Shown: positions 21,603-25,447 of the stretch, one piece after another | How positions within the stretch are numbered: position 1 is the first letter of the stretch | How the letters are laid out: each line of letters starts with the position of its first letter | DNA from: Hyphococcus luteus | Lineage (GTDB): Bacteria; Pseudomonadota; Alphaproteobacteria; Caulobacterales; Parvularculaceae | Reading direction: 5' to 3' | Length of the DNA: 64,000 nt | Assembly: GCF_002943565.1 (NCBI RefSeq) | Contig: NZ_PJCH01000005.1 | Coordinates: 434,001 to 498,000, forward strand | Program-made: the position numbers and the translations under genes | Notes under the pieces: generated by a model | The model's database searches: none | What the model was told of the DNA's origin: nothing | Seen by the model: the letters and a program-made list of their open reading frames with translations, nothing else

Positions 21603-22085
21603 TTAAGAGCGATGATAAGGATGGCCGGAAAGGATCGTCATGGCCCTGTATAGTTGCTCCGCCAACATCGCCCTGACAAGCATATGCGGCCAGGTTGCGG
21701 CGCCGAAAGAGACAAGCCGCGCCGCCCGCGACCGCACGTCATCGCCGTGCCCGTCTGCGCCGCCGATTAAAAACGCCGCCGACGCGGCGCCGTCATCTCG
21801 CATGCGCTCAAAGACCCTCGCAAATTTTTCGCTGGAAAGATTTTCCCCACGCTCGTCGAGCGCGATCACGACGGCGCCCTCCGGGACGGTTTTCAACAGG
21901 AGTTCGCCTTCGCGTTTCTTAAGGGCCGCGCCGGACAGGGATTTGGGCGCATCCAGTTCGCTCAGCGCGAAGTCGGAAAAGCCGATGCGCCGGCCGAAGC
22001 CCTGGGCGCGGTCGAGATAATCCCCGACCAGCGCCGCTTCGGGACCGCCGCGCTTTTTTCCGATGGCGGCGATCTCAATCCGCAT
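21603..22085 (-). CDS. rlmH: 23S rRNA pseudouridine(1915)-N3-methyltransferase RlmH
   Basis: 160 residues, the usual length. A SPOUT-class methyltransferase that methylates pseudouridine 1915 in helix 69 of 23S rRNA. The SAM-binding knot is near the C-terminus: 'AAFLIGGADGHGDDVRSRA', and 'WPHMLVRAMLAEQLYRAMTIL' is the family end, finishing with 'GHPYHRS'. It is 15 bp after rsfS and 12 bp before envC, in the standard order, so one transcript is likely. Confidence 0.97.
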   Translation of the reverse strand: MRIEIAAIGKKRGGPEAALVGDYLDRAQGFGRRIGFSDFALSELDAPKSLSGAALKKREGELLLKTVPEGAVVIALDERGENLSSEKFARVFERMRDDGAASAAFLIGGADGHGDDVRSRAARLVSFGAATWPHMLVRAMLAEQLYRAMTILSGHPYHRS

Positions 22086-22100: not shown

Positions 22101-22475
22101 TTACGCGTCCGCTTTTGCGGGCGCGTGGGCGGCTTCGGACCAGACGCGCTCAAGATTGTAGAAGTCCCGAACTTCCGGCCGGAAAAGATGGACGATGACG
22201 TCCTCGGCGTCGATCAGCACCCAGTCGCAGGTTGTCGCGCCTTCGACGCGGACGCGGCCGAGCCCCGCCTCTTTGAGGCGGCGCATCACCTTGTCGGCCA
22301 TCGCGCCCACATGGCGCTGAGAGCGCCCGGAGGCGATGACCATGGCGTCGGCGATGTCGGATTTCCCCTGAAGGGAAATGGTCACGACATTCTCCGCCTT
22401 GTCGTCATCAAGCTCTTCAAGGATGAGAGAGAGAATTTTCCGGCTGCGTTCCTCCGGGGACAAATGCGAGAGCAA
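22101..22475 (-). CDS. rsfS: Ribosome silencing factor RsfS
   Basis: 124 residues. It binds L14 on the 50S subunit and blocks subunit joining when nutrients are low. The family core 'AENVVTISLQGKSDIADAMVIASGRSQRHV' (positions ISL, KS-x-ADAM, ASGRS) and 'TCDWVLIDAEDVIVHLFRPEVRDFYNLERVW' are diagnostic. I place the start at TTG 22475, because AAGGAG (22484-22489) is eight bases upstream and the conserved domain begins soon after. An ATG at 22664 would add 63 non-conserved residues. nadD lies upstream, rlmH downstream. Confidence 0.92.
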   Translation of the reverse strand: MLSHLSPEERSRKILSLILEELDDDKAENVVTISLQGKSDIADAMVIASGRSQRHVGAMADKVMRRLKEAGLGRVRVEGATTCDWVLIDAEDVIVHLFRPEVRDFYNLERVWSEAAHAPAKADA

Positions 22476-22665
22476 ACTCCCGTCTCCTTCAGCCCCCGAC
22501 TGTTCCGGTCCTGTGTGATCCGGAACGAGCCCTAATGCGGCCTTTCCCGCGGCCGCGGCGCCATGCTGTGCGTTCAGCTCCAGTCTCCATACGCTGCGCG
22601 GGGCACGTTTCCCGCATTTCCAAATATAGGGCCGTTCCGGGGGCGCTCCAACCGGGAGCGTCAAA

Positions 22666-24261
22666 TTATTTGTTGCTTAAAAGGCACGCCGCGAACCAGC
22701 CCTTTGGGTCGGTCCAGGCTTTTTCGAGCCGCCAGGGGGTCTCCTTAACCAGATCCTCGATTTTTTCGAGGGTGAATTTGTGAGAGTTTTCCGTATGCAG
22801 GGTCTCCCCCTCGGCGAAGGAAAACGCCTTGCCGTCGATGACGATCTCGGTCGGCCGGACCGCGCGCAGATGCATCTCGATCCGGTCTTCCGCGTCATTA
22901 TAAAAAGCGTAATGCTCGAAATCGCCGATATTGAGCCGCGCATCGAGCTCGGCCTTCATCCGTGTCAGGAGATTCATGTTGAAGGCCGCCGTCACGCCTT
23001 CCGCGTCGTTATATGCCGCTTCGAGAATCTTTTTGTCCTTGACGAGGTCGACGCCGAGGAGGAACTGCGCGCCTTCACCCAGCGTGTCCGACGCTCTTTT
23101 CAAAAACGCCTCCGCCGCATCGCGCGACATGTTGCCGAGCGTCGAACCCGGAAAATATCCAAGCCAGTGGTTCGGCTCGGGAAGCACGTTTTTGGGGAGT
23201 TCAATCGGCGAATGAAAATCGGCGCAGATCGCCGCCACCGGAACCGGCAGCACATCCGCCATGGAGACCGCCGCTTCGAGCAGATATTCCCGGGAAATAT
23301 CCATCGCCACATAGGCGGCGGGCTTTTCCAAACCGTTCACCAGCCATTCGATCTTCTCGCTCGACCCGGACCCGTATTCGAAAATCGCCGCGCCCGGCCC
23401 GACCGCGCCGGTGATCTCGGCGGCGTTGTCCTCGAACACGGCCTTTTCCGTTCGCGTCGGATAATACTCCTCAACCTCGGTAATCCGGTCGAACAGCTGA
23501 GAGCCGTATTCGTCATAGAAATATTTCGGTGAAATCGATTTCGGGCTTTTGGACAGCCCTTCAATCGCATCGGCGTGAAAGTCTCCCTGATCGGGATGCA
23601 GATCGAGGAAAAAGGCAAGCGCGCCGCAAGGCGCGATAAGGTCGTCGTCGCGGTCTATGGTCTGTGAGTGCTGGATCTTTCTGCTCCTTATCGCAGTTGA
23701 GGAAATCGAGTTGTCCGTGTCCTGAAAGAACACCCAGACAGGCGGTTCGGTTGCGCAAAGGTCCGTCGCTTTATCGGAATCTATCCGATAAGACGAAAGC
23801 GCCTCAGCCGCTTCGCTTTCAAGCGCCTCGGTTTCATGGCCGGGCCGGTTGAAAACGGCCATGGGAACGGCCTCGGCGATATGGCGCCAGTCGCGCCAGC
23901 GGTGAAAATTTTCAAGCCCGTCCGCGCCCATGAGCCAGACAAAGTCGGCGTTCGGATTGAGCGCTTTCAAGGCGTCGATGGTGTCGGCGGTGTAGGTCAG
24001 CCCCTTGCGGCGTTCGAAATCGCTAACGACAATGTCGGGATGATGGCTCACCGCCCGGGCGAGCCGCAGACGGTCTTCATAATCCGCATAGCTGCCGGGA
24101 TCTTTCAGCGGATTGCCCGGCGTCACCAGCCACCAGACGGCGTCGAGGCCGAGGCGCTCGAGCGCAGCGAGGGAAATCTCGCGATGACCCTGATGCGGGG
24201 GATTGAAGGAGCCGCCCAAAAGCCCGATGCGGCGGCGTTCTATGGCATTGCTGGACGGCAA
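22666..24261 (-). CDS. NadD-EgtD fusion: NaMN adenylyltransferase joined to a histidine-methyltransferase-type domain
   Basis: 531 residues in one open frame. Residues 1-195 are a complete NadD: 'GGSFNPPHQGH' (16-26) with the (H/T)xGH nucleotide-binding motif, 'VSDFERRKGLTYTADTI', 'FVWLMGADGLENFHRWRDW' and the C-terminal 'ISSTAIR' (186-192). It adenylylates nicotinate mononucleotide. Residues about 226-531 match EgtD-type SAM-dependent methyltransferases: 'KYFYDEYGSQLF' (246), 'EEYYPTRTE' (264), SAM loop 'FEYGSGSSEK', 'GYFPGSTLGNM', and a terminal E-x-S motif ('TENSHKF', Glu491/Ser493) that in mycobacterial EgtD contacts histidine. It probably starts at TTG 24261 behind GGGGGAG. No egtB is seen. 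A Shine-Dalgarno-like AAGGAG (23684-23689) sits exactly at the junction. Context (obgE, rsfS) is that of an ordinary nadD. Confidence 0.9.
   Translation of the reverse strand: MPSSNAIERRRIGLLGGSFNPPHQGHREISLAALERLGLDAVWWLVTPGNPLKDPGSYADYEDRLRLARAVSHHPDIVVSDFERRKGLTYTADTIDALKALNPNADFVWLMGADGLENFHRWRDWRHIAEAVPMAVFNRPGHETEALESEAAEALSSYRIDSDKATDLCATEPPVWVFFQDTDNSISSTAIRSRKIQHSQTIDRDDDLIAPCGALAFFLDLHPDQGDFHADAIEGLSKSPKSISPKYFYDEYGSQLFDRITEVEEYYPTRTEKAVFEDNAAEITGAVGPGAAIFEYGSGSSEKIEWLVNGLEKPAAYVAMDISREYLLEAAVSMADVLPVPVAAICADFHSPIELPKNVLPEPNHWLGYFPGSTLGNMSRDAAEAFLKRASDTLGEGAQFLLGVDLVKDKKILEAAYNDAEGVTAAFNMNLLTRMKAELDARLNIGDFEHYAFYNDAEDRIEMHLRAVRPTEIVIDGKAFSFAEGETLHTENSHKFTLEKIEDLVKETPWRLEKAWTDPKGWFAACLLSNK

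Positions 24262-24367: not shown

Positions 24368-25447
<1,080 letters not shown>

Follow-up and report, generated by a model that had tools for sequence, protein, structure and literature searches.

Most gene fusions bring together enzymes that act in a single pathway. The Egt1-type proteins of fungi and some bacteria, in which EgtD is fused to EgtB, are of this kind, the partner of EgtD being the enzyme that acts directly after it. Adenylyltransferases acting on NaMN or NMN are also found together with a second domain, as in NadR, in the NMNAT-Nudix proteins and in the long NadD model NF005519 (361 aa); to our knowledge, the added domain is of kinase, Nudix or HD type and belongs to nucleotide metabolism, and no histidine methyltransferase is known in this role. 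The window analysed here, a stretch of 64,000 nucleotides from the alphaproteobacterium Hyphococcus luteus, contains a gene that resembles both groups, in that an adenylyltransferase carries a second domain and EgtD serves as a module. It differs from the Egt1 type in that the partner of EgtD belongs to another pathway: an essential NAD enzyme is joined to an antioxidant-making methyltransferase. The EgtB module is missing from the polypeptide, which consists of NadD and EgtD only and thus does not have the Egt1-type architecture. The gene very probably encodes a bifunctional NadD/histidine methyltransferase that arose stepwise from a nadD–egtD operon pair. The sequence-only reading of this DNA knew of no such fusion, and neither the fusion nor the pairing of nadD with egtD was found described in the open-access papers searched.

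The gene is a single frame of 531 codons on the minus strand, running from a TTG start at 24261 to a TAA stop at 22666–22668. On the plus strand, stops break the frame over 22666–24261. The neighbourhood is the canonical one of nadD, as had been recognized from the sequence, with the order obgE, nadD-egtD, rsfS, rlmH. The features are the following:

24368..25438, minus strand: obgE, upstream neighbour, from profile matches
22666..24261, minus strand: nadD-egtD fusion gene, 531 aa
23662..24240, minus strand: NadD (nicotinate-nucleotide adenylyltransferase) domain, residues 8–200, by NF000843; the AlphaFold domain matches NadD structures
23686..23706, minus strand: NadD motif ISSTAIR, residues 186–192, read from the translation
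23626..23679, minus strand: disordered linker, residues 195–212, from pLDDT below 50 and codon scans
22681..23580, minus strand: EgtD (L-histidine N-alpha-methyltransferase) domain, residues 228–527, by TIGR03438; top fold matches to M. smegmatis EgtD
22783..22791, minus strand: E491-N492-S493, containing the equivalents of Glu282 and Ser284 of mycobacterial EgtD, by alignment
22101..22664, minus strand: rsfS, downstream neighbour; its true start probably lies further inside the called frame, since the domain covers residues 79–175
21603..22085, minus strand: rlmH, next downstream gene, from profile matches

Both halves of the protein are whole domains. Pfam assigns CTP_transf_like to residues 14–194 (E 1.2e-21) and Methyltransf_33 to residues 229–529 (E 3.2e-100). 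The NCBIfam cut-offs are passed for NadD by NF000843 (251.3 bits against 240) and TIGR00482 (131 bits against 112.45), and for EgtD by the equivalog model TIGR03438 (358.6 bits against 290.9). The NadD motifs GGSFNPPHxGH and ISSTxIR are both present, with almost all of their columns invariant among 15 fused proteins, and the EgtD half carries FEYGSGSSEK together with the E491/S493 pair. This agrees with the sequence-only reading, which had described the NadD motifs (GGSFNPPHQGH, and ISSTAIR at 186–192) followed by a full-length EgtD-like domain in one frame. The N-terminal half therefore has the complete domain, the motifs and the obgE, rsfS and rlmH surroundings of known NadD, from which it differs by its extension with a linker and a methyltransferase domain. 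In the genome (4.92 Mb, 16 contigs, 99% complete) there is a single EgtD and a single NadD above cut-off, so that the fused gene holds the sole copy of each; no second NadD that could relieve the fused one passes the cut-off anywhere in the genome. As the only NadD above cut-off, the N-terminal half is presumably active.

The AlphaFold model shows two confident domains (mean pLDDT 87.8) separated by residues 195–212, which fall below 50; at a pTM of 0.60, the model does not fix how the domains lie relative to one another. In Foldseek searches EgtD structures come first, led by M. smegmatis EgtD, followed by NadD structures. The active site was mapped by phmmer alignment to mycobacterial EgtD. 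Gly86, Lys92, Asp113, Asp141, Phe142 and Gly161, which we take to be residues of the SAM site, correspond to G297, K303, D321, D348, F349 and G372. The histidine-site residues Tyr39, Tyr56, Asn166, Tyr206, Thr213, Met252, Glu282 and Ser284, whose roles in the mycobacterial enzyme have been described (PMC8593015), correspond to Y249, Y266, N377, Y417, T424, M463, E491 and S493. All 14 positions are kept, and they are invariant in the 15 fused proteins. In its whole domain, in the residues checked and in its fold, the C-terminal half is thus like known EgtD (TIGR03438; M. smegmatis, 4PIM/4UY5; M. tuberculosis, PMC8593015), but it lies C-terminal to NadD and has no start codon of its own.

No egtB had been noticed near the gene, and it had been supposed that the product might not be ergothioneine; a search of the rest of the genome had been proposed. 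That search finds egtB on another contig, C7 (TIGR03440, 571 bits, cut-off 360), head-to-head with the NAD kinase gene nadK (NF003406, 375 bits, cut-off 211); the arrangement is at L032, 1486–3647. The same head-to-head arrangement (L145–L165, L170, L175, L176) is found in the genus wherever the contig is long enough, and also in G029 and G035. In most cases, a class II aldolase-like gene lies behind egtB. Among 60 relatives, 43 bear egtD, and EgtB passes the cut-off in 40 of these and is present as pieces at contig ends in two, so that both genes co-occur in 42 of the 43 genomes when pieces are counted; the remaining one is an 84%-complete genome. EgtB exceeds the cut-off in none of the 17 relatives without egtD. 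The case for a role of the fused EgtD in ergothioneine synthesis is built mainly on this co-occurrence, which, together with the conserved histidine site, speaks against the earlier supposition. EgtC, a component of the ergothioneine pathway of the mycobacterial type, does not pass its cut-off in the genome (best match 22.6 bits against 218.65), and the later steps of ergothioneine synthesis are therefore no more than putative here. Both ergothioneine genes adjoin NAD(P) genes, which is striking, but it was noticed post hoc and involves few independent events.

The related genomes show how the two genes stand to one another. The sample comprised 28 genomes of one GTDB genus (Marinicaulis is now filed under Hyphococcus, Parvularculaceae, in the NCBI taxonomy), and a count of NadD-EgtD architectures, which the sequence-only reading had suggested, gives an unbroken frame in 15 of them, one of which is a single-contig assembly. 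The other 13 are unfused. Five have separate genes overlapping by 4 nt (GTGA or ATGA), with a GGAG- or AAGG-like site 10–13 nt before the egtD start in four and a weaker one in G024. In another four, the genes are separate at other short spacings, and in the last four both genes share a frame that is interrupted by a stop (TAG, TGA, TGA, TAA) a few residues past the NadD motif. Three loci (L012, L018 and L019, of G019, G001 and G023) have their in-frame stop at one and the same position behind NadD but with different codons (TAG, TAA, TGA), and no ribosome-binding site precedes the one start that is plausible for egtD there. In six of the 15 fused species, GGAG-11 nt-GTG/ATG is still present where egtD ancestrally began, so these could also make EgtD separately. 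In the clade of seven species that includes the window's, that start site is gone, and the place that reads V-T-D-L in the ancestral start reads D-D-D-L in the window. Since every stage of fusion (overlapping pair, relic-start fusion, obligate fusion) occurs in this one genus, the forces behind gene fusion become directly testable in it.

A missed stop or an indel that joins two ordinary genes by sequencing or assembly error would also give a long frame, and the 13 congeners with unfused tandem genes could be taken to point that way. The sequence-only reading had named a stop or frameshift at the junction, or two-gene relatives, as signs of such an artefact. Two-gene relatives do exist, but residues 180–260 align without any indel between the window and the three relatives closest to it, and the frame is equally unbroken in a 92% identical sister species and in the one-contig genome, which makes the fusion derived and not an artefact. 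The open frame is shared by 15 independent species-level assemblies, and the start codon and ribosome-binding site that egtD ancestrally had are gone; the conserved frame already refutes an artefact, whose probability is close to nil. Purifying selection acts on all parts of the gene: dN/dS within the window's nearest relatives is 0.03–0.15 in NadD and EgtD, and 0.03–0.39 in the 20-codon linker, where sites are few. Among the window and its three nearest relatives alone, the values are 0.06–0.13 for NadD and 0.05–0.13 for residues 246–530, which make up most of EgtD. The proposal that EgtD is also or mainly a separate polypeptide, made from an internal start with the long frame incidental, finds its support in the six fused relatives with a relic start. 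In the window and its sister, codon scans find no in-frame ATG, GTG or TTG between residues 178 and 260, where a start would be needed, and as the active-site residue Tyr249 lies within this interval, EgtD has no possible canonical start of its own; a separate EgtD is accordingly very improbable. Initiation at a non-canonical codon (CTG 221, ATT/ATC) could in principle occur, and the fusion protein could be processed after translation. It is likewise improbable, to a similarly high degree, that the C-terminal domain, although of the EgtD family, methylates another substrate. A partner from NAD synthesis and an egtB that is not adjacent would fit such an enzyme, but the EgtD equivalog cut-off is passed while the EasF model stays well under its own (142.8 bits, cut-off 205.6), the equivalents of Met252, Glu282, Ser284, Tyr56, Asn166, Tyr206 and Thr213 are all kept, and EgtB co-occurs.

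The fusion did not arise once only. A tree of NadD plus EgtD needs at least six changes between the fused and unfused states, and a five-gene tree (obgE, nadD, egtD, rsfS, rlmH) at least five, four of them inside the genus, fusions and splits not being told apart in either. Several deep forks of both trees, on which the order of states rests, are weakly supported, while the window's seven species form one group (support 91/98). A single clade of the 15 fused congeners, a group defined by the trait and not by the tree, is rejected by the AU test (lnL 198 worse, p-AU 2.6e-83), so that gain or loss of the fused state occurred several times. In one overlapping and one fused sequence compared by eye, GGAG and the start are equally far apart and the NadD frame is shifted by one base, from which we infer that a small indel in the tail of NadD, and not a lost stop, gave rise to some of the fusions. 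The sequences thus indicate that merger of NadD with its operon neighbour EgtD is recurrent in this group of marine-type alphaproteobacteria. Outside the order, no full-length single-frame fusion was found among 385 genomes of the class. Within the order (398 genomes), the other full-length matches contain one or two stops, and an egtD start is present after the stop in those that were translated. Two further candidates suggested by the lengths of open frames were rejected: in G400, a distant genome, a stop closes NadD and egtD begins at an ATG of its own, and in G295, of the same family, a stop is present. In G035 (L125/L031), of another genus, the NadD frame reads on across about 65 linker residues into EgtD as far as the contig end; the locus is probably one more fusion, and it may have an internal ATG.

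The idea that EgtD was newly appended to NadD did not hold: egtD is an old operon neighbour of nadD, found in the order nadD-egtB-egtD-rsfS in many alphaproteobacterial families. In ten genomes, from families f14, f59, f95, f125, f127 and f170, the order is nadD-egtB-egtD with rsfS next; it is nadD-egtD-rsfS in three genomes of f8 and nadD-egtB-egtD in a MAG of the Rhodobiaceae. The four-gene order can be read across several families at L182–L191 and L044. These 13 nadD-linked genomes of the class (10 plus the 3 of f8) are among the 25 with the EgtD most like that of the window; in the next 51 by EgtD likeness, nadD and egtD are never close, the nearest pair lying about 13 kb apart (G520). Every EgtD of the sample that is linked to nadD and co-directional with it falls into a single clade (SH-aLRT 94, one change) in a tree that left out the unlinked members of the top 25. 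Maricaulaceae also have nadD and egtD in tandem, but split by a stop and a new ATG, and both there and in the window's genus egtB is absent from between them. The simplest reading of these gene orders is that egtBD was placed once between nadD and rsfS and inherited, and that egtB later went missing from between the two in several lineages.

The bifunctional protein would work as follows. Its N-terminal domain, the cell's only NadD, would convert nicotinate mononucleotide and ATP to deamido-NAD, while its C-terminal domain, the only EgtD, would carry out three SAM-dependent methylations from L-histidine to hercynine, to be used by the EgtB encoded elsewhere in the genome. Most likely, both products are made by domains that act independently, each folding on its own on either side of a flexible linker of about 18–30 residues. 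As NadD and EgtD share no substrate, no channelling is expected, and the effect of the fusion would be obligate co-translation at 1:1 dosage. The series of states suggests a path that would begin with egtB-egtD inside the nadD-rsfS operon of an alphaproteobacterial ancestor. Loss of egtB from between nadD and egtD would have been followed by their conversion into overlapping, translationally coupled genes, then by a change of reading frame in the dispensable NadD tail that joined both frames and, in the window's clade, by loss of the old egtD start.

Why the fusion exists is a separate question, and a selectively neutral origin is compatible with a bifunctional enzyme. The fusion may be a by-product of a short operon overlap, its linker tolerated and a link between NAD and ergothioneine not selected. 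From pathway knowledge the two enzymes have no substrate in common, the NadD tail past SSTxIR is short and variable in stand-alone genes too, fused, overlapping and separate states exist side by side in one genus, and an internal start that looks functional survives in several of the fused species. Against neutrality stand the repeated appearance (or loss) of the fused state, the persistence of the obligate form through seven species, and a nadD neighbourhood far older than the fusion. Whether the link was selected or merely tolerated is close to an even question, and the neutral account has roughly an even chance of being right. It is possible, though rather unlikely, that Alphaproteobacteria tie NAD(P) supply functionally to ergothioneine synthesis, with the fusion as the tightest form of a coupling by which two redox-protective molecules are held in step with each other. 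Such a tie is drawn from the retention of egtB-egtD in the nadD operon of many families, from the head-to-head egtB and nadK genes, and from the repeated merging of NadD with EgtD. The nadD-egtBD neighbourhood, which was not found in the open-access papers searched, points to a possible metabolic link between NAD and ergothioneine.

EgtD also occurs in other arrangements among these genomes. In other genera of the family (L140, L141, L167), a different EgtD lineage lies near nadD in divergent orientation, with a sugar-nucleotide epimerase-like gene between nadD and egtD at L140 and L141. In G037, G041, G053, G057 and other f3 genomes, EgtD and EgtB matches fall in single frames of about 730–880 aa, and the EgtD matches of G118 and G165 likewise lie in single open frames of this length, which suggests that all of these are EgtB-EgtD fusions.
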